Notes under the pieces: model-generated
What the model saw: the letters and a program-made list of their open reading frames with translations, nothing else
What the model was told of the DNA's origin: nothing
The model's database searches: none
Shown here: one piece after another, positions 591-9,757 of the stretch
Position numbering within the stretch: position 1 is the first letter of the stretch
How the letters are laid out: each line of letters opens with the position of its first letter
Assembly: GCA_902779075.1 (NCBI GenBank)
Contig: CACZAK010000288.1
Span: 1-9,950, forward strand
Length of the DNA stretch: 9,950 nucleotides
Source of the DNA: an uncultured bacterium
GTDB taxonomy: Bacteria; Verrucomicrobiota; Kiritimatiellia; RFP12; UBA1067
Direction: 5' to 3'
Program-made: the position numbers and the translations under genes

Positions 591-2012
591 TCATCCCGCC
601 GTGAAAAGGTCGTCTAGTGACACCTCGGACTGGATGCGCGACGAATACTCGTTCCGGACGAGTCCGCTGGAGGTGATCATCGTAAGATGGATCGATTTCC
701 GCGTTTTCGTGACTTCTCGGAACACGCCGATCTTCTGCGCAAGGCGTGCGTCGTATTCCTTGTCGATTCTGAACGGTTCAGACGTGTATTTGCACTCGCA
801 GACGTTGATCACATTGTCGGCCCTGTCGAAAAGGAGGTCTATCTGCGCACCGTCAGGATGCACGTCGTCCGCTCGATGCTGCCATGCACAACACTCCACA
901 AGGACGCCGTCAATGCCAAGCGTCTTGCGTATCTGCGGCTGGTGCAAAAGGCAGAGCCGTTCAAAGGCCAGTCCGCACCAGACCCTGTGGAAAGGCGTAT
1001 CCACCGTCCGCAGCCAGAAGTTTCCGTCCGATGGCTTTCTGCCAGCAAGATAGCGGAAATGGAAAAGCGAAAAAGCGTCAACCAGCTGAAACACCAGTTT
1101 GCAGCTCCCTGAACCGAATGGATTGTACTTACGGACAAAACCGCTCACGGTCAAAGCCTCAAGCGCATCCGTCAGTTTGCCGGATGCCGAGATGCCGAGC
1201 GCGCGCGCGATGTCGTTTCGCGTCATGCCGGAAAGCCTTCCTGCAAGTTCCTTCACGATCTTGCGGGGCAGTGCCGAGTTGCGGAACAGGGACGAATAGA
1301 GTTCCACGAACTCGTCGGCGAGCGGAGCACCGTCAGCAAAGAACATCCTGTCGAGATTCTGCGCGACCGAGAAGCGCTTGTCAAGGTATCGCCAGTAGAA
1401 CGGGATTCCTCCGAACGCCATGTAGCACTCGGCTATTTCCGCCCGCGACATCACGAGACCTCTTTCGCGGACAAGGCTTTCACACTCGCACAGCGTGAAC
1501 GGATTCAGACAGATCCGACACGTCACGCGGTTGTGAAGTCCGCCTCGGTTGCGAAACAACTTCTTCGCGATCCAGGAGGCGGCCGAACCGCAGACGATCA
1601 GCAGAACGTCCTTGCGCGCCGAAGCCCATCCGTTCCAAAACCCTTCCAGTGCCGACACGAAATTCGAGCGCGGCGTGTCCAACCACGGCATCTCGTCGAT
1701 GAACACGACCTTGCGCTGGAACTCGCTCGCGGCAATAACCTCTCGAAGCATGACAAACGCCTCGTCCCAATTCTTCGGCGTTCCATGCCCAGACAGACCA
1801 AACGACTTGAGGGAAACGGCGAAATTGGCGAGTTGGCGCTTCATCCCACCTTTCGCAAGGCCGGAATGCTGGAACGTAAATTGCCCGTCAAACGTCTCTC
1901 GCACAAGATACGTCTTGCCTACGCGCCGACGCCCATAGATTGCGACAAATTCCGACTCGTTGGATTCATACATCCGCATGAGTTCGTCTTGTTCGGCTTT
2001 CCGGCCTATCAT
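591..2012 (-). CDS. ATP-binding protein, ATPase_2 domain with C-terminal DUF234 (PD-(D/E)XK-like)
   Basis: This 473-residue protein has the normal full length and order of the prokaryotic ATPase_2/DUF234 family. Walker A is GRRRVGKT (27-34), Walker B is VVFIDEMPW (102-110, Asp106 and Glu107), a sensor-like strand LIVCGSAASWI follows at about 138-148, and LHNRVT (159-164) sits where the arginine finger is expected. A winged-helix segment follows (about 255-300, SGMTRNDIARALGIS). The C-terminal DUF234 region (about 340-473) keeps a nuclease-type core: Glu351, Asp392 in QIDLLFD, and Glu406-x-Lys408 in ECKY. The start at 2012 is set by AAGGAG at 2019-2024 with a 6-base spacer. These proteins are cytoplasmic STAND/AAA-like ATPases, often multicopy in anaerobes, with no settled role; defence, DNA processing and selfish spread have been considered. 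A remnant of a related gene lies at 6921-7160. Confidence 0.9.
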   Translation of the reverse strand: MIGRKAEQDELMRMYESNESEFVAIYGRRRVGKTYLVRETFDGQFTFQHSGLAKGGMKRQLANFAVSLKSFGLSGHGTPKNWDEAFVMLREVIAASEFQRKVVFIDEMPWLDTPRSNFVSALEGFWNGWASARKDVLLIVCGSAASWIAKKLFRNRGGLHNRVTCRICLNPFTLCECESLVRERGLVMSRAEIAECYMAFGGIPFYWRYLDKRFSVAQNLDRMFFADGAPLADEFVELYSSLFRNSALPRKIVKELAGRLSGMTRNDIARALGISASGKLTDALEALTVSGFVRKYNPFGSGSCKLVFQLVDAFSLFHFRYLAGRKPSDGNFWLRTVDTPFHRVWCGLAFERLCLLHQPQIRKTLGIDGVLVECCAWQHRADDVHPDGAQIDLLFDRADNVINVCECKYTSEPFRIDKEYDARLAQKIGVFREVTKTRKSIHLTMITSSGLVRNEYSSRIQSEVSLDDLFTAG

Positions 2013-2173: not shown

Positions 2174-5100
2174 TCACAAGTTCTTGTCGGCGAAATCCAT
2201 GTAACGGTCCCAGTCGTAGGGGTCGAGGGAATGCTTGCCGGGACGCAGATGGTACGAGATGCTTCCCTCCTGCTGCTTCTCGCCCGGTGCGGGGAACCGT
2301 TCCGCAACGAGTCCCATTCTGCCGTACAGTTTCCACGCGGGCGACGCGAGCTTCGCGCTCCACCACTCGCCGGGCTGCCCACACCAGTAGTCTTCGGACG
2401 CGGAGGCGACGCAGAGCAGCCGCGGCGCGACGAGGGCGAGCAGCTCGTGCTGGTCGAAGTCCATCGTCATCTCCTTGCCGCCGTACTTCTTCGGGTAGTT
2501 GCCACAATACCAGTTCGGGAAAAACTTCGGGATGGACGCGATGTTCTCGCTCTTCGGAAGTCGGATGTGGTTGAGCTTCGCGCCGTGCGCGCCGGAATTG
2601 TTGGAGCAGACGAGCGCGAAACGCTTGTCGGTCACGCCCGTCCAGATCGCGGTCTTGCCACCGCGCGAATGGCCGACGACCCCGACGCGCGTGGCGTCGA
2701 TGGCCGGTTCCGTCTCGATCCAGTCCATCACACGGCTCGCCGCCCACGCCCACGCGGAGATCGTGCCCCACGATTCGTCCGTGCGCGCCTCGGGCTTCTC
2801 CACGCACTTGAACACGCCCTGCGCGAACCCCGTGTTCTTCTCCGTCGCGATGTCCTCGGTGAGGAAGCCGATTGTCGCGTAGCCGCGTCCGACAATCTGC
2901 TCCACCGGCCAGCATACGCTTGTGATCACGTGGTCGCCCCCCACCTTCGAACGACTCTTCAGACAAATGCTCACGAACGCCGGAACCGGCTTTTGCGCCT
3001 TGGGAATGTAGACGGTGAACGGGAACGAGAACTTTCCGAGCGGCCCGTCGAACTCCGCGCGGACGAGTTTCCGTACGGCCTTGCCGTCCATCACGGGACG
3101 CTCGTCGTACACCTTGAACGAGATGCGCTTCCGCTCGTCCAACACGGCGGGACGGCGTCCATAGACATCCTTTTGGAAGCGCTCCAGCAGTTCCGGCGCA
3201 CGCACCTTCTCCCACTCCGCCTTCGTCTTCACCTCTTCGCCCGCAAACGTCCGCATCAGCTCCGGCACGTTCTCCGGCTCGGGGATGCTCGTATCCACGG
3301 CCCTGAAGTGGAACTCCACCATTGCGAACGTCACCGGTTTCTTGAACTTCACGGCAATGCGGCGCGGGCGTCCATCCGGCGGCGTGTTCTGCGTTTTGCC
3401 CGCCACCCAGATCGCCCATTTTCCCTCAGGCGCGTCCTTCGCGACCGGCAATTCGCCGCGTCCGTTGTCCATCGTGCGCACGTCCCATTCCCATTCGCCG
3501 CCGGAAGTCTCCACATCGACGGCAAGCCGTCCCTTCTTGCCGACGAATTCAAGCCTCGTATCTTGCTGTCGTACGCTTGCTGTCACACCGACCGTCGCCA
3601 CCCTGCCATCCACGCCGACCAATGTGGTCAGCGGGTCGTCGAACGCCGTCGGTTCCTTGAAGTCGACTTCATCGCGGATCGTCACGGTCTGTGCCGCACG
3701 GTCGTAGATGAACTTGCGGTGGAGACGCTTGAGCGTTTTCGATGGATACGCGCCCGTCAGGTCGAACACGACCGTATCGCGGTTCGGCCGGAACTCCGTG
3801 CGGATGATCCGTGCGGCGTAGCGGCGTCCCAGCCCCTGCAACACGCCGGGACGCGGCACGGGATGCCCGAAGCTGTTCAGCACCTCGGAATCGTAGCGCC
3901 GCGACGAGAACGTGCGCCGCGAGTAGAGTTCACCGCCCACGTCGCCGCACAGCACCTCGCCACCGAGTGAGATCGCGTACGATCCCACGTCGTTGTGATT
4001 ATGGAGTTCGGCGTTGTGTCCACCCTTGACGCCCAAGGCGATGCCGCCCTTCCCGCCGCCAGGCCTCATCAGATAAACTTGCGAATGAGGAAAGACGCTC
4101 CGCATGGGCAACGGGGCTGGTAAGACAGCAAGCGTACTACAACAAGATTTCGCCCTGCCACCTTGCTGTTGTACGCTTGCTGTCCCACCTTGCTGTTGTA
4201 CGCTTGACGTCCCAAACGCGCGCAACGCAATGAACGCACATGCCGGGCACGGACTAAAACTCGCGGAGTCCCCCTTCTTGAGCGACAGCGGTCCCACACC
4301 CGAACTTGGAACCACCGTCGGCCAAAACCTGTGGCACAAGTCGAGAAGCGAAAGGTCCGGCGCACCGCCGCCGTCCGCGAAATGCGGAGAAAGCCCGTCC
4401 TCCAGCTGGAAGTTCACCGCGTACGCGGCGGCGGTCGCCGCCATCGGCGAATCAAGCGACACGAATCCACCGGTGGCCTGCTCCGCCATCGCGCGCAGCG
4501 CGACGTAGTGTCCGAAACCGTAGTTCCAGTAGCCCATTCCCTCTGAACAGTAGCCGTCGCGTCCGAATCCGAGGAAGTAGTGGGGCATCGCCCGTTCGAC
4601 AGCCTCAAGACACTCCGCCCGTTCGCGGCGGCTGTCGAGGATTGCGAGGGCGGCGCCGACGCATCCGGCGTGGCACACGGGTGACCAGTTCGTCCGTACG
4701 AAAAACCACCAGAGCGGATCGCCTCCGCCGCCCTTGGCGAGCGACGGATTGCGGCACGCCGCAAGGTACAGGTCCAGGACGCGTTTGCGGCATTCCAACT
4801 TCGCCCGCGCCACCAGTTCCGGCGGGAGGACGTCCGCAAACCAGTTGGCCGCATACGCGACGATCCACGCCCTGTTCGCGCTGAAGAGACAGATCACCGG
4901 CTTCCCCTTGACGAACGCGAGATCCTTGGTATCGGTGGCGGGGATCGTCCACACCTTCTCGTCGAGAACCGACTCGAGGTAGCGGCGAATCTCCGGCACG
5001 AAGCGTCCCTTCCATTCAAGCGCCTCCGCCACCATGAAGAGGTTGAGACGGTACGCCTTGCGGAAGTAGTCGATCTTCGCGCCGACCAGCTTTTCCGCCG

Positions 5101-6361
5101 ATGCGACGATCGCGGCGGCGGCGGGGTCTTTTGCAAGCGGCGCCCACGCCGTGCGGTCGCACGGACGCGGCGCCGGCGTACAGGGTCTTTCCGGCAGGTG
5201 CGCCGCGATCTGATCCACGCGCGAGACGTGCGCAAGCGCATACCGGCGCAGCTCCGCCGCCGCCAGCAGATAGCCGCCCGCGCCGTACGTCTCGGTCGAG
5301 TCGGGGCCGAAGTTCTTCACCGGACTTTCCCCGATCGGCTGCACCCACCCGAACTTGCCGTCCTCACCGACGCAGCGACACATCGCCGCCCACGCCCGTT
5401 CGACGCAGGGGAGGTACGTCGCCTCGTCAAGTACGCCGTTGTTCACGCCCCAGGCGAGCGCGTAACAGAAGAACGCGGTCGCGCTCATCTCCGGCGCGTC
5501 GGGGTTCTTTCCGTCGAGGAGGCTGGCGGACCACGCCCCGTCCGCGCGCTGGATCGTCCGCACCTTCGCGCACATCTCTTTGAACAGTTCCGTAAACCAC
5601 CGCCGTTCCGCGCTGTCCGTGGGAAGCTCGCGGATGACGAGCGGAAGACCGGCGAGGACCCATCCGTTCCCGCGTCCCCAGAAGAGCTTCTTGCCACCGG
5701 GAGTCGTCCGCCCCACATACCGCGCGTCGCGCCAGAAGAGATGATCCTCGCGGTCGTAGAGGTGGTCGTAGGTGGCACGGTACTCGCCCATCATGAAATC
5801 GAGGTACTTCCGCTCGCCCGTGATCGCCGCGAGCTTCGCCCACACGGGCGGGGACATGAAAAGCGCGTCGCACCAGTACCAGCGCCGTCGGTTCAGCACG
5901 ACGCGCTCGCCTTCGCGGCGGGCGAGCGGCGCATCAACGTGCGCCGCCATGAACGCGTCGAGTTCCGCGCGCACGGACGCCACGACCGCATCATCGCGCT
6001 CCGCGCGCGCGATGTCGAGCCAGGCTTGTCCGATGCAGTGCGTGTTGCCCACGTCGGCGTCGCGCTTCTCGAACTTCCAGCCGTACGTGCGTCCCTCCTC
6101 GCGGATGGCGTCGATGTACCTGCGCTCTCCCGTCGCACGCGCGAACTCCGCCAGCCCGGCGTAGAACGCGCCATAGCTCCAGTCGCGGTGGTTGGCGCGC
6201 TTCGGATGCGCCAGCATCCAGTCCGCCACCTTCACGCCGTTGGACGCAATCGTCGCGGCGTCGAACGAAGCGCACACGGCAGTTTTTTGCACTTCTCCGC
6301 CCTTGACGACTGCGGCGGCAAAAAACGCCGCAGCCAGGGAAAGCGCTTTTCGAGTCACCAT
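2174..6361 (-). CDS. Secreted three-enzyme fusion: GH105 hydrolase - heparinase II/III-like lyase - CE15 esterase
   Basis: One uninterrupted frame codes for 1395 residues. Residues 1-22 (MVTRKALSLAAAFFAAAVVK...) are a signal peptide, so the enzyme is exported. Residues about 30-378 match GH105 (YteR-like unsaturated rhamnogalacturonyl hydrolases) in full length, with the family segment WYWCDALFM (161-169, Asp165), GNTHCIGQAWLD and FWGRGNGWVLAGL. Residues about 400-1025 match heparinase II/III-type lyases: a helical toroid with NWSPV (558-562) and DGYCSEGMGYWNYG (602-615), then a beta-sandwich opening with HNHNDVGSYA (787-796). Residues about 1030-1395 match CE15 glucuronoyl esterases: nucleophile elbow GHSRGGK (Ser1232), SEDYW (1322-1326) and catalytic His1377 in RPGKHSL. 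Together they could de-ester, cleave and trim a uronic-acid-rich glycan. The start at 6361 is set by AAGGAG six bases upstream plus the signal peptide. A repeat-rich insert sits at residues about 717-745. Domain calls rest on recalled family motifs; the exact lyase family is not decided. Confidence 0.88.
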   Translation of the reverse strand: MVTRKALSLAAAFFAAAVVKGGEVQKTAVCASFDAATIASNGVKVADWMLAHPKRANHRDWSYGAFYAGLAEFARATGERRYIDAIREEGRTYGWKFEKRDADVGNTHCIGQAWLDIARAERDDAVVASVRAELDAFMAAHVDAPLARREGERVVLNRRRWYWCDALFMSPPVWAKLAAITGERKYLDFMMGEYRATYDHLYDREDHLFWRDARYVGRTTPGGKKLFWGRGNGWVLAGLPLVIRELPTDSAERRWFTELFKEMCAKVRTIQRADGAWSASLLDGKNPDAPEMSATAFFCYALAWGVNNGVLDEATYLPCVERAWAAMCRCVGEDGKFGWVQPIGESPVKNFGPDSTETYGAGGYLLAAAELRRYALAHVSRVDQIAAHLPERPCTPAPRPCDRTAWAPLAKDPAAAAIVASAEKLVGAKIDYFRKAYRLNLFMVAEALEWKGRFVPEIRRYLESVLDEKVWTIPATDTKDLAFVKGKPVICLFSANRAWIVAYAANWFADVLPPELVARAKLECRKRVLDLYLAACRNPSLAKGGGGDPLWWFFVRTNWSPVCHAGCVGAALAILDSRRERAECLEAVERAMPHYFLGFGRDGYCSEGMGYWNYGFGHYVALRAMAEQATGGFVSLDSPMAATAAAYAVNFQLEDGLSPHFADGGGAPDLSLLDLCHRFWPTVVPSSGVGPLSLKKGDSASFSPCPACAFIALRAFGTSSVQQQGGTASVQQQGGRAKSCCSTLAVLPAPLPMRSVFPHSQVYLMRPGGGKGGIALGVKGGHNAELHNHNDVGSYAISLGGEVLCGDVGGELYSRRTFSSRRYDSEVLNSFGHPVPRPGVLQGLGRRYAARIIRTEFRPNRDTVVFDLTGAYPSKTLKRLHRKFIYDRAAQTVTIRDEVDFKEPTAFDDPLTTLVGVDGRVATVGVTASVRQQDTRLEFVGKKGRLAVDVETSGGEWEWDVRTMDNGRGELPVAKDAPEGKWAIWVAGKTQNTPPDGRPRRIAVKFKKPVTFAMVEFHFRAVDTSIPEPENVPELMRTFAGEEVKTKAEWEKVRAPELLERFQKDVYGRRPAVLDERKRISFKVYDERPVMDGKAVRKLVRAEFDGPLGKFSFPFTVYIPKAQKPVPAFVSICLKSRSKVGGDHVITSVCWPVEQIVGRGYATIGFLTEDIATEKNTGFAQGVFKCVEKPEARTDESWGTISAWAWAASRVMDWIETEPAIDATRVGVVGHSRGGKTAIWTGVTDKRFALVCSNNSGAHGAKLNHIRLPKSENIASIPKFFPNWYCGNYPKKYGGKEMTMDFDQHELLALVAPRLLCVASASEDYWCGQPGEWWSAKLASPAWKLYGRMGLVAERFPAPGEKQQEGSISYHLRPGKHSLDPYDWDRYMDFADKNL
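3562..3584 (-). repeat. Dispersed 23-bp intragenic repeat, single copy
   Basis: Read on the minus strand this is GACAGCAAGCGTAC followed by GACAGCAAG. It differs by one base from the copies at 4162-4184 and 4189-4211 over most of its length. It codes for TASVRQQD at residues 927-934 in the beta-sandwich of the lyase domain. The unit itself has an 8-bp direct repeat (ACAGCAAG) spaced by 6. Confidence 0.75.
4124..4211. repeat. Cluster of three 23-bp repeat copies, two tandem and one inverted, inside the lyase domain
   Basis: Copies at 4162-4184 and 4189-4211 are direct repeats with a 27-bp period, exactly nine codons, giving the peptides TSSVQQQGG and TASVQQQGG. The copy at 4124-4146 is inverted relative to them and shares an exact 14-base core, GACAGCAAGCGTAC, so the cluster can fold into a long hairpin. 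The inverted copy is read as SCCSTLAVL. The stretch coincides with a Gln/Gly/Ser-rich segment (residues about 717-750) that does not look like domain core and precedes the HNHNDVGSYA motif. Confidence 0.8.
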
Positions 6362-6555: not shown

Positions 6556-6695
6556 GTTGGGGTGGCGGGCGTCTCGCCCGCAACTAGGCCAACAGGGGTC
6601 CCGCCCGTTGCGGTAGGGCGCGCGCCCCGCGCGCGCCGATGTGGCAAGGCCGCCCCGGCCTTGCAAGGTGGGGCGAGCCCTCCGGGCGAGCCGCA
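6556..6695. repeat. GC-rich multi-hairpin element A (REP-like)
   Basis: This stretch holds consecutive perfect palindromes: GCGGGCG/CGCCCGC with a 3-base loop at 6565-6581, GGCGCGCGC/GCGCGCGCC with a 3-base loop at 6617-6637, and GGCAAGGCC with GGCCTTGC at 6643-6664, then a direct repeat of GGGCGAGCC near 6671-6694. Bases 6611-6695 match element B (7222-7306) at 83 of 85 positions. It begins a few bases after the stop of the C-terminal remnant at 6700-6864 (minus strand). No open frame of note is present. The role is unknown; REP/BIME-like elements can act in RNA end protection, termination or gyrase binding. Confidence 0.85.
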
Positions 6696-6699
6696 CCCC

Positions 6700-6864
6700 C
6701 TACAGCACCACCACCACCTTGAAGAACCGCATCGCCGCCTTCTCCGCCGCCATCGCCCCTTCAGCGCCATCCGGCGTCGCATGTCCCGCATGACCGTCCT
6801 GGTAGAACGGGCGCACCGCACACGTTATAAAAGACCGCGTGAAACCCCATTGCCAAAGCCCATC
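6700..6864 (-). pseudogene. C-terminal remnant of a secreted protein related to the 7338-8198 gene
   Basis: After a TAA at 6867-6865 the minus strand reads 54 codons to TAG at 6702-6700, with no start codon at the left of the frame. Its end, AAEKAAMRFFKVVVVL, nearly repeats the end of the 7338-8198 protein, AAEKAAMRFFKVVVEVQ. The match continues upstream as ATPDG against ATLDG after a 12-base in-frame gap. The part before it (QWGFTRSFITCAVRPFYQDG) has no counterpart that I recognise. I read it as a decayed copy of the 3' end of a paralogous gene. Confidence 0.6.
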
Positions 6865-7196: not shown

Positions 7197-7333
7197 GAAG
7201 CGGCGCTCTCGCCGCTTCACCCGGTAGGGCGCGCGCCCCGCGCGCGCCGATGTGGCAAGGCCGCCCCGGCCTTGCCCGGTGGGGCGAGCCCTCCGGGCGA
7301 GCCGCAAAGCGGTAGGGGCACGCGCCCCGCACG
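7197..7333. repeat. GC-rich multi-hairpin element B (REP-like)
   Basis: It contains GAAGCGGCG/CGCCGCTTC with a 4-base loop at 7197-7218, the same GGCGCGCGC and GGCAAGGCC palindromes as element A, and an extra GGGGCACGC-type hairpin of about 27 bases (7307-7333) absent from A. Bases 7222-7306 match element A at 83 of 85 positions. It ends four bases before the TAG of the 7338-8198 gene, so on the minus strand it is the immediate 3' flank of that two-gene unit and could act as its RNA end. No U-run follows the hairpins. Confidence 0.85.
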
Positions 7334-7337
7334 CCCC

Positions 7338-8198
7338 CTACTGCACCTCCACCACCACCTTGAAGAACCGCATCGCCGCCTTCTCCGCCGCCGTCGCCCC
7401 TTTAACCGACTTCCACTCGCCATCCAGCGTCGCCGCACCCTTCAACACGGCCTGTATCTCCGCGCCCGTCCAGCGATTCATCTTCGGCTCCCACTCCACC
7501 TTCGGCTCACCATCCACCAATTCAATGGACACAATGCGGAAGTCGTTCGTGGCAAGAGCCGGATCAAGCCCCAGCATATAGCACTCCGCCGCCGTACGCC
7601 CATTCGCCGCCACGGCATCAGCCGTCAGGTTACGCTCAGCCAGCCATGCGGCAAGACCAGATGTCGGCGTCCATGTGACTTCGTCTAGCCATGCGCAGTC
7701 CGAACCGCCCGACATCTCGTCGTCTTTGACGTACGACCACCGGAGAACGTGCCTCCCTGCGCCTTCGACCTGCACCATCGCGTTCGTCCAGTCCTGTTCT
7801 CCGCCAATCCGCAGACGCTCCTGTCCGTCCACCGAAAACATCGCATAGTCAATCGCATACTGGCGGTAGTGTTCGCTCGACGCCTTCCACCAGAACGACA
7901 CCTCCCCCGCACCGTCCACGGACGTCTCGACCCACGACACCTGTCCGTTGCCTATCGCTCCGCTCTTCAGCGCCGAACCGCCGCCGTGCGCCGTCTCGCC
8001 CTGGGCCGTCCATTCTGCGTCGCCGCCCGTCGAGAACTCAAGCCCTGGCGCGTCCAACGCGCCGGACAGTCCTCCGTCGCGGTCATGCGCCACGGCAACG
8101 CCCCACATCGCCACGCGCATTCCCAGAGGCATCGCCTCCACGGAGACGCCCGCCGCCCACGCGGCGAACACAATCCCTATTGCCAACAACCGCTTCAT
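7338..8198 (-). CDS. Secreted beta-sandwich protein with C-terminal FFKVVVEVQ module
   Basis: The product has 286 residues. MKRLLAIGIVFAAWAAGVSVEA is a signal peptide; ATG 8198 has GGAG nine bases upstream, while ATG 8204 leaves only three, so I prefer 8198. Residues about 45-178 resemble a concanavalin-like/MAM-like beta-sandwich common in surface proteins of this superphylum: SALKSGAIGNGQVSWVETSV, GEVSFWWKASSE, MFSVDGQERLRIGGEQDW, HVLRWSYVKD and SDCAWLDEVTWTP. Residues about 178-286 form a second module (GLAAWLAERNLTA, CYMLGLDPALATNDFRI, KGAATLDGEW, MRFFKVVVEVQ) seen, as far as I recall, at the C-terminus of many exported proteins in this group. No catalytic residues are evident; ligand binding or surface display is likely. 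It follows the LRR gene by 16 bases, so the two are probably co-transcribed and may act together. Confidence 0.75.
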   Translation of the reverse strand: MKRLLAIGIVFAAWAAGVSVEAMPLGMRVAMWGVAVAHDRDGGLSGALDAPGLEFSTGGDAEWTAQGETAHGGGSALKSGAIGNGQVSWVETSVDGAGEVSFWWKASSEHYRQYAIDYAMFSVDGQERLRIGGEQDWTNAMVQVEGAGRHVLRWSYVKDDEMSGGSDCAWLDEVTWTPTSGLAAWLAERNLTADAVAANGRTAAECYMLGLDPALATNDFRIVSIELVDGEPKVEWEPKMNRWTGAEIQAVLKGAATLDGEWKSVKGATAAEKAAMRFFKVVVEVQ

Positions 8199-8214
8199 CG
8201 GCATCCGCTCCGTG

Positions 8215-9690
8215 TCACTGCACCGTTTCCAGCTCTTCGCGCGAGACGAGGAACGTGTCGCCCGTCGTTCGCGTGATGGTGAGAATGTTGCGGGAGTTGG
8301 CCGGAATCGTCAGTGGCTTCGCACCCTTGAATGTTTCATAGACGTAACCCGCAGGAAGCGTCAGACGCACCTCGCCCGCAGACGTGTTCACGATGCGCAG
8401 GACCGAATCGTAAACCTTCCCGTCCTTCAACACGAACGAATCAATCGCGCAGTCCCGATCCACGGTCACGGATGCGATGGCACGGTCCGCCGGACTCGCC
8501 GCGAGCGCATATCGCGGATCGACCGGCTCCGCACTACCGCCGCCGGAAGACCCACCTCCTGCCGATGAACTATTCGCCAGCGTCCGGTACCATGCGGTCC
8601 AAAGTCGGCCGCAACCATCAAATGCCGAAGATGGCAACGATGTCACGCTATCGGGGATTGTCACGCTCATAAGCCCACCGCAGCCGGAGAACGCGGAAGC
8701 TCCGATGCTCGTAACACCGTCCGGGATCGTAACACTCGTAAGCCCGCCGCAACCGGAGAACGCGGAATCTCCGATGCTCGTAACACCGTCCGGGATCGTA
8801 ACGCTCGTCAAACCGCCGCAATTATAGAACGCGTAATTCCCGATGTTGGTCACGCTGCCGGGTATCGCCACGTCCATATTCAAGCCTTGTATAAGCGTTG
8901 TACCGTCCTTCGACAATAACAGACCATTGATTGACTTGTAGTTGGGGTTGTCATCAGCAACCGAAATCGACATCAGTCCATTGCAATTGAAGAACGCCAG
9001 AGACCCGATGTTCGTCACGCTGTTCGGTATCGCAATGCTCGTCAGGCCGCTGCAATTGTAGAACGCTCGATCCCCGATGCTCGTCACCGAGTCGGGTATC
9101 GTCACGCTCGTAAGGCCGCTGCAATTGTAGAACGCTATATCCCCGATGCTCGTCGTACCTTTACTGATGACGAGATTTGTAACTGCGTTAAACGGTATGG
9201 TACATTTCCATCCAGGAACAACGACATCCGTCACGTTCGTGCAACCCTCGAACGCACTCCTCGCGATGCTCGTCACACCATTGCCGATCGTCACGCTCGT
9301 AAGACCGCTGCAATAGTAGAACGCCCCATCCCCGATGCTCGTCACGCTGTTAGGTATCGTCACGCTCGTAAGACCGCTGCAATAGTAGAACGCCCCATCC
9401 CCGATGCTCGTCACGCTGTTAGGTATCGTCACGCTAGTAAGACCGCTGCAACCGTAGAACGCATCATACCCAATGCTCGTCACGGGTTTGCCGCCGAGCG
9501 TGGAGGGTATCGTCACGGCTCCAGTAGGTGATGGCGAGATGGCAGGAGAAGGAAAAGATGGGCCGTAAATCTCCGCCGTGTCGCCGTTGATCCAGTACGT
9601 CCACGTGTAGTCGCCGACCGTTTCCGTATCGGCCCACGCGCCAAACGCCACGGCCACCGCCGCAGCCATCATCATCAATTTTGTTTTCAT
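8215..9690 (-). CDS. Secreted BspA-like leucine-rich repeat (LRR_5) protein
   Basis: The product has 491 residues. The start at 9690 is set by AAAGGA eight bases upstream and by the signal peptide MKTKLMMMAAAVAVAFGAWA; the longer frame to 9756 runs into repeat DNA. Residues about 22-70 form an N-cap (ETVGDYTWTYWINGDTAEIY). Residues about 73-370 hold ten to eleven LRR_5 units of 23 residues, consensus GDxAFYxCSGLTSVTIPxSV, with a longer insertion at about 240-275. A Gly/Ser linker (375-386) leads to a C-terminal module (about 388-491) with YVYETFKGAKPLTIPANSRN and FLVSREELETVQ, which I recall from other proteins of this clade without a known function. LRR_5 proteins of gut bacteria are surface-exposed and bind hosts, particles or other cells. 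No LPXTG or transmembrane anchor is seen. Partner: the beta-sandwich gene 16 bases downstream. Confidence 0.88.
   Translation of the reverse strand: MKTKLMMMAAAVAVAFGAWADTETVGDYTWTYWINGDTAEIYGPSFPSPAISPSPTGAVTIPSTLGGKPVTSIGYDAFYGCSGLTSVTIPNSVTSIGDGAFYYCSGLTSVTIPNSVTSIGDGAFYYCSGLTSVTIGNGVTSIARSAFEGCTNVTDVVVPGWKCTIPFNAVTNLVISKGTTSIGDIAFYNCSGLTSVTIPDSVTSIGDRAFYNCSGLTSIAIPNSVTNIGSLAFFNCNGLMSISVADDNPNYKSINGLLLSKDGTTLIQGLNMDVAIPGSVTNIGNYAFYNCGGLTSVTIPDGVTSIGDSAFSGCGGLTSVTIPDGVTSIGASAFSGCGGLMSVTIPDSVTSLPSSAFDGCGRLWTAWYRTLANSSSAGGGSSGGGSAEPVDPRYALAASPADRAIASVTVDRDCAIDSFVLKDGKVYDSVLRIVNTSAGEVRLTLPAGYVYETFKGAKPLTIPANSRNILTITRTTGDTFLVSREELETVQ
8700..8802. repeat. Near-identical LRR coding repeats, 69-bp period (3' block)
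   Basis: Bases 8700-8733 recur exactly at 8769-8802, 69 bases apart, equal to one 23-residue LRR unit. They code for VTIPDGVTSIG repeats. DNA identity above what the protein needs suggests recent unit duplication. Confidence 0.75.
9301..9438. repeat. Two tandem LRR coding units, 68/69 bases identical (5' block)
   Basis: Units 9301-9369 and 9370-9438 differ at one base (C against A at 9436) and code for two copies of GDGAFYYCSGLTSVTIPNSV plus three residues. This is the freshest duplication in the array and a place where copy number could change by slippage or recombination. Confidence 0.85.
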
Positions 9691-9724
9691 TTCGCTAGTC
9701 CTTTCAATTGGCTCTTTCTCCTTA

Positions 9725-9751
9725 CGGCTCGGCGGGACGCCTCGCCCCACC
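9725..9751. repeat. 27-bp GC-rich repeat, copy 1
   Basis: Identical to 9803-9829. On the minus strand it contains GGCGTCCCGCC, which can form a short hairpin. It lies 34 bases upstream of the LRR gene start. Confidence 0.85.
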
Positions 9752-9757
9752 AACACC

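Follow-up and report, generated by a model that had tools for sequence, protein, structure and literature searches.

Domain composition of the encoded protein

We analyzed a window of 9,950 nucleotides (nt), that is, the whole stretch of contig CACZAK010000288.1 of an uncultured bacterium that was under study, and focused on a gene on its minus strand that encodes a putative multidomain enzyme acting on uronic acid-containing polysaccharides. The gene starts with an ATG at position 6361, ends with a stop codon at 2174, and consists of a single unbroken frame for 1395 amino acids (aa). The initial annotation, made without database searches, had placed three enzyme classes in one exported chain, and the uninterrupted frame, the three domain matches and the signal-peptide-like start (Table 1) all agree with this proposal; neither stop codons nor frameshifts separate the domains. 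The active-site motifs quoted at that time were found again and line up with active sites already known, far beyond chance. The additional statement that each domain has about full length does not hold for the lyase, which is short of 22 residues (66 base pairs (bp) at 5068/5069). Judged from the sequence, the protein is probably a multicatalytic enzyme that is exported; from its relatives we infer that the bacterium is Kiritimatiellae-like and of gut type.

Table 1. Coordinates of the enzyme gene, its parts and the adjoining inverted repeat in the window
Feature	Position	Strand	Basis or remark
Whole gene, 1395 aa, predicted GH105, PL33-like lyase and CE15	2174..6361	-	
Signal-peptide-like start, residues 1-25	6287..6361	-	Sequence read by eye
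GH105-type unsaturated uronyl hydrolase (predicted), residues 26-378, catalytic D165	5228..6286	-	Pfam, alignment with solved structures
PL33-like lyase (predicted), residues 380-1019, alpha toroid followed by beta sheet domain	3305..5224	-	Structural model made for the L032 protein instead of the window copy
Retained lyase residues N558, Y611, H787, Y813	within 3305..5224	-	Alignment with BtPL33
Point of the clean 66-bp in-frame deletion, TGNR segment with the equivalent of BtPL33 R103 gone	5068..5069	-	Alignment
Hypervariable linker joining the alpha and beta parts of the lyase, with in-frame copies of a dispersed repeat	4125..4210	-	Alignment
Repeat copies in the linker	4125-4146 (inverted orientation), 4162-4183, 4189-4210	-	Repeat search
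Repeat copy in the lyase beta domain, inside a 16-aa stretch absent from some relatives	3562..3583	-	Alignment
CE15 glucuronoyl esterase (putative), residues 1026-1394, triad S1232, D1324, H1377	2180..3286	-	Pfam, alignment with solved structures
Perfect 19-nt inverted repeat with 13-nt loop, immediately 3' of the stop codon	2094..2144	.	Repeat search

The N-terminal domain matches the Pfam model PF07470 (E = 1.7e-70, 238.2 bits, cut-off 26.6), which spans GH88 and GH105, and some of the closest solved chains bear the GH105 name or description. Of the GH105 structures, 4ce7 (E = 1.2e-66), which we take to be Nu_GH105, an ulvan enzyme, is the closest. In the alignment, W163, D165, M169, W228 and W234 correspond to Trp141, Asp143, Met147, Trp211 and Trp217 of YteR, whose roles in the pocket, including that of the catalytic Asp143, are described in PMC4528949. 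YteR Asp88 lies beyond the reach of the alignment and YteR His189 is opposite a gap, so that neither is paired with a residue of the window protein. Nu_GH105 and YteR have the catalytic Asp and the Trp and Met pocket residues in common with the window protein but, unlike it, are not joined to a lyase.

The C-terminal domain, a putative glucuronoyl esterase, matches the Pfam model PF22244 (E = 7.9e-29, 101.6 bits, cut-off 27) and the solved structure 8q6s of PvCE15 (E = 7.3e-70). S1232, R1233, K1236, E1272, D1324, W1326 and H1377 correspond to S264, R265, K268, E302, D353, W355 and H406 of PvCE15. The Ser-His-Asp triad (S1232, H1377, D1324), the oxyanion Arg (R1233) and the binding residues W1326, E1272 and K1236 are therefore all present, with the residue roles taken from PMC10807430. 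PvCE15 and OtCE15A (6syr), the closest solved CE15 enzymes by sequence, share the triad, the oxyanion Arg and the Trp, Glu and Lys contacts to glucuronate with the window domain; in the alignment, OtCE15A has a Glu where PvCE15 and the window protein have an Asn. Both are single CE15 enzymes, in contrast to the fusion found here.

The central stretch has no Pfam or NCBIfam match at E = 0.1, and its assignment as a lyase is suggested by matches to solved structures, profiles and folds. The solved structure 8r75, an entry named heparinase that is BtPL33HA in structural matching, matches at E = 8.8e-25. PL33 is clearly first among the solved lyase structures; PL12, PL15, PL17, PL21 and PL35 were rejected as the nearest family. 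Of the families named in the initial annotation, Pfam profiles thus recovered GH105/GH88 and CE15, and the lyase has PL33 as its nearest family among solved structures instead of PL12, PL15, PL17 or PL21. The Pfam model PF07940, presumably Hepar_II_III, is matched by P0060, a distant relative. With the fold modelled on the relative L032, the domain has the two-part (alpha/alpha)6 plus beta architecture of PL33, and by alignment N558, Y611, H787 and Y813 correspond to N238, Y291, H444 and Y470 of BtPL33, whose roles are described in PMC11848413; the PL33-invariant N238, Y291 and H444 are all among them. BtPL33HA and BcPL33HA therefore have the fold, the catalytic Asn, Tyr and His and the second Tyr in common with the window lyase. 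In contrast, identity to PL33 enzymes is as low as 19-22% in structural matches, the segment with R103 is gone, and the crystallized PL33 enzymes have neither GH105 nor CE15 as a fusion partner. We file the domain as PL33-like rather than as a PL33 member. Relatives of the lyase domain with about 50% identity (P0011-P0015, the content of P0013 and P0014 being taken from precomputed domains) include one joined to a histidine phosphatase domain (P0012), one joined to a DUF4838/GH67N-like part (P0015) and one joined to a beta helix (P0011).

Distribution of the fusion among related bacteria

An architecture search, as suggested in the initial annotation, retrieved full-length proteins with all three domains in the same order and frame at two loci from different assemblies, L031 (CAMKJU010000082.1) and L032 (RUG14528). 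L031 has alignment figures identical to those of contig C82 of genome G001, and L032 has a checked 60-mer in common with contig C16 of genome G270. In a third case (L033, genome G011) the sequence starts within the GH105 tail at the contig edge. Altogether, the triple occurs in at least 2 of the 345 genomes of the class, with at most two candidates per genome scored at E <= 1e-50, a setting at which triples of lower identity may be missed. Proteins composed of the lyase and CE15 without GH105 were found at L034, L035 and L036 and apparently also in P0007-P0010. By comparing such natural two- and three-domain versions, one could find out if the three activities (lyase, unsaturated-uronyl hydrolase and glucuronoyl esterase) operate as a unit.

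For the pairs led by the window gene, L031 or L032, the ratios of nonsynonymous to synonymous substitution rates (dN/dS) between these three genes are 0.08-0.20 in every domain, at dS values of 0.11-0.23. Thus, all three domains are under purifying selection. In the structural model of the L032 protein (predicted template modelling score 0.74 for the whole model), the junction between GH105 and the lyase is one continuous helix, residues 350-383, with a predicted local distance difference test score of 86-94 for the block, and the relative position of the two domains may therefore be fixed. L049 (stop codon in the chosen stretch) and P0011 (extra domains) were left out of the lyase alignment, in which the starts of L034 and L036 are untrimmed, and L085 and L109 were left out of alignment A2; residue pairings, CE15 match counts and the counts in the 68-protein set described below were done by hand.

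GH105 and CE15, the families at the two ends of the protein, both occur with other partners as well. CE15 fusions as such are already known, and there are many in these bacteria. CE15 itself is common: all 16 genomes of the genus have it, with 89 matches above the cut-off (20 of them in frames of at least 600 aa), compared to 0 of 14 control genomes. In a set of 68 related proteins, drawn from the 7987 best word-sharing candidates that were scored, 60 carry the CE15 Pfam model, a count favored by the CE15 domain in the query itself. The partners of CE15 in this set include, among others, what we take to be GH105, 78, 92, 2, 36, 97, 20, 28 and a GH123-like domain. BeCE15A-Rex8A (CE15-GH8), CkXyn10C-GE15A and OtCE15C (CE15-GH106) are likewise fusions of a glucuronoyl esterase with another carbohydrate enzyme, but have one partner catalytic domain each (GH8, a xylanase and GH106), whereas the window protein has GH105 and a lyase as partners, three catalytic domains in all, and CE15 in the last position. 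Among the titles and abstract openings listed in searches of open literature, none indicated a GH105-lyase-CE15 protein; papers linking Kiritimatiellae with glucuronoyl esterases, or 5NOA or DUF4861 with GH105, were likewise not found. What CE15 enzymes act on outside xylan is still debated as a question (PMC10807430), to which the partner domains are a clue. Other combinations of GH105 exist as well. Two sister proteins of the genus that were checked (L013 and L015) are GH105-DUF4861, and CE15 was absent from all three long GH88/105 frames in which it was looked for, namely L150 from the same genus, with the order LamG-BNR_4-GH88/105, and L148 (590-4297) and L151 (1840-5475), which come from other genera of the class and each combine BNR_4 with a pair of GH88/105 stretches.

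Proposed exchange of the coding block between genera

The alignment of the window with L032 begins 81 nt past the window ATG, just behind the signal peptide, and stops 11 nt short of the end of the stop codon, with the flanks unaligned at the sensitivity used. For L031, the downstream flank is homologous for 2.2 kilobases (kb) to the window end and the upstream flank is not. The signal peptides differ among the three genes, and the GH105 part of the window gene, directly behind its signal peptide, is 95.7% identical to that of L031 and 96.5% identical to that of L032. Over 4.2 kb, the identity between L031 and L032 is 93.8%, compared to 79.9% for the rpoB region of the respective genomes G001 and G270, which belong to different genera. 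Similarly, the genes of L031 and L034 are 88.8% identical, compared to 74.7% for the rpoB region of G001 and G038 (L034 gives alignment figures identical to those of L003 of G038). This difference between gene and rpoB identities supports exchange between genera. L031 and L035 have the same upstream gene end yet differ in the presence of GH105, and in a tree of the lyase-CE15 part of seq­uences from seven loci L031 groups with L035 (support 92), not with L032 or the window, the other nodes being weak (45, 55, 66). Thus, the presence of GH105 does not track one branch. No convincing remnant of GH105 was found in front of L034, L035 and L036, which encode the two-domain version, so that gain and loss cannot be put in order.

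Comparison with these relatives suggests that GH105 is a module gained by, or lost from, a lyase-CE15 protein behind the signal peptide, and that the block was passed between genera. In a more general form, which we put forward tentatively and hold to be somewhat less than an even chance, the mature enzyme would be a coding block exchanged horizontally, as a whole multi-enzyme, between Kiritimatiellae genera and given a local signal peptide in each; GH105 and similar modules would be gained or lost at the signal-peptide border, a short stop-free repeat would spread in frame, and CE15 would be a general add-on to many different enzymes. Exchange of this block-like kind hints at a way in which new enzymes may arise in little-studied gut bacteria.

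Apparent deletion and repeat copies in the lyase

The 22 residues that are missing between D431 and Y432 of the window lyase are kept in 10 of the 10 compared relatives that carry the region (13 sequences were aligned, P0002 and P0005 are devoid of the whole region, and 11 including the window remain). At the DNA level the gap is clean and in frame, and its ends, read by eye, have no bases in common. The missing stretch holds a TGNR motif whose arginine aligns, by hand count, with BtPL33 R103, so that this near-invariant PL33 residue is absent from the window copy. R103 is a substrate-binding residue, and its replacement by alanine lowers kcat/KM 50-60-fold (PMC11848413). Because the equivalent arginine is gone, the lyase step is probably weakened in the window allele; GH105 and CE15 look intact, and the remaining checked catalytic residues of the protein are present. 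The gap is seen in a single sequence and could be real or an assembly slip.

The linker between the two lyase domains holds, in frame, 0-4 copies, depending on the strain, of a dispersed repeat with the core GACAGCAAGCGTACAACAGCAAG, which is stop-free in all six frames. The repeat is present in 10 of 14 genomes, with 96 copies of at most one mismatch in G001, 86 in G013 and 64 in G011, and none for the reversed control. It behaves like the palindromic elements in Rickettsia genes, but is not a palindrome. For 77 copies with at most two mismatches, from 20 stretches of G001 picked around listed copies, enrichment in coding frames was not clear (76 of 77 in open frames of at least 100 aa versus 96.8% of random positions); 58 (75%) lie in frames of at least 500 aa, versus 63% at random, and the copies are thus at least not excluded from long frames. 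At the same linker site, L033, L035, L036, P0002, P0005 and P0007 have other GC-rich repeat-like inserts. These unrelated inserts across strains indicate that the site tolerates them.

Proposed mechanism and alternatives

The explanation that we regard as fairly probable overall combines a secreted GH105, PL33-like lyase and CE15 enzyme, working as a relay, with block exchange and a weakened lyase in this strain. The lyase would break 4-linked glucuronic-acid chains and leave 4,5-unsaturated ends, GH105 would then take off these ends, and CE15 would release glucuronic acid that is held by esters at chain ends or in side chains of that material. Of the relay that the initial annotation had outlined, the lyase-then-GH105 step fits family chemistry, but the lyase may be weak here and the CE15 step is limited by the report that five CE15 enzymes were inactive on backbone uronic acids, their action being placed by the authors on terminal or branching ones (PMC10807430). 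A given residue in a given state would thus not serve both CE15 and the lyase, and the link of CE15 to the other two steps is one that we infer.

Several observations weigh against this explanation. The position of BtPL33 H154 is Thr476 in the window protein and Thr throughout this clade, so that even the intact lyase would be unlike PL33 in the +1 site. P0002-P0005 have GH105 and CE15 but are devoid of residues 398-749, about the whole lyase alpha domain, in frame, and P0006 is devoid of most of GH105; such losses suggest that the three activities are not necessarily interdependent. The high identity between genera could stem from wrongly binned contigs, although L032 and L034 sit on contigs of more than 80 kb. 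In addition, the neighboring genes conflict and point to no single substrate: NAGLU lies by L031, rhamnosidase-like, arabinosidase-like and GH95 genes by L032, sugar isomerase-like and oxidoreductase genes by L034, and an alginate-lyase-like gene by L036.

Two alternatives have some weight. The protein could be a decaying multi-enzyme that acts as a GH105 and CE15 pair, with a lyase in disuse in the window strain. The loss of the R103 segment, the effect of the R103A exchange and the near-complete loss of the alpha domain in P0002-P0005 argue for this view, whereas the dN/dS of 0.09-0.20 for the rest of the window lyase versus six compared loci, the retained Asn, Tyr, His and Tyr, and a possible assembly slip behind the deletion argue against it; we rate it as credible, at slightly under even chances. 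We give equal weight to the view that the domains form no relay and share one chain because this is convenient for secretion, each working on a separate polymer or on a separate part of one polymer. The joining of CE15 to many unrelated enzymes (the 60 of 68 proteins, for a query with CE15) is consistent with this, and two fusions, CE15-GH8 and CkXyn10C-GE15A, showed no intramolecular synergy (PMC8417218). However, all three domains come from families active on uronic acids. Moreover, the product of the lyase is the type of substrate used by GH105.

A substrate of the host or bacterial glycosaminoglycan type (heparosan, heparan, hyaluronan) instead of plant uronates is rather unlikely in our view. 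To our knowledge, no ester target of CE15 exists on such chains, the neighbors of L032 are of the plant-polysaccharide type, and the nearest GH105 structure is the presumed ulvan enzyme. On the other hand, the α-N-acetylglucosaminidase gene NAGLU is directly upstream in L031, with the same upstream gene end in L035, and hyaluronan, heparosan, chondroitin and gellan are substrates of PL33 (PMC11848413).

Strain-mixed metagenomes with dispersed repeats, such as those in this gene and in related genomes, can misassemble. An assembly chimera of separate genes, a worry of the initial annotation, is nevertheless very improbable, given the full-length L031 and L032 from other assemblies, the low dN/dS on either side of each junction and the continuous helix modelled for the GH105-lyase junction of L032.

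Other features of the window

The inverted repeat behind the stop codon is possibly the transcript end; with its 13-nt loop it is outside the list of the terminator scan, which had a loop limit of 8. The numbers of predicted promoters and terminators were similar to those in shuffled sequences (1 versus 0.7 and 4 versus 4.5, respectively). A gene for an AAA-type ATPase (591-2012, minus strand) adjoins the enzyme gene and is retained in L031. The window and L036 also have a stretch in common on the upstream side of the enzyme gene; inspected by eye, it resembles the beginning of a further ATPase gene, which is truncated in the window. The regions 6611-6761 and 7222-7402 contain repeats of 85 nt and 62 nt in the same order, which correspond to a GC-rich repeat and the 3' end of the gene 7338-8204; this suggests a remnant of another gene that shared this C-terminal tail. 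Further upstream, 8215-9756 (minus strand) encodes a BspA-type leucine-rich repeat protein with a repeat spacing of 69 nt.
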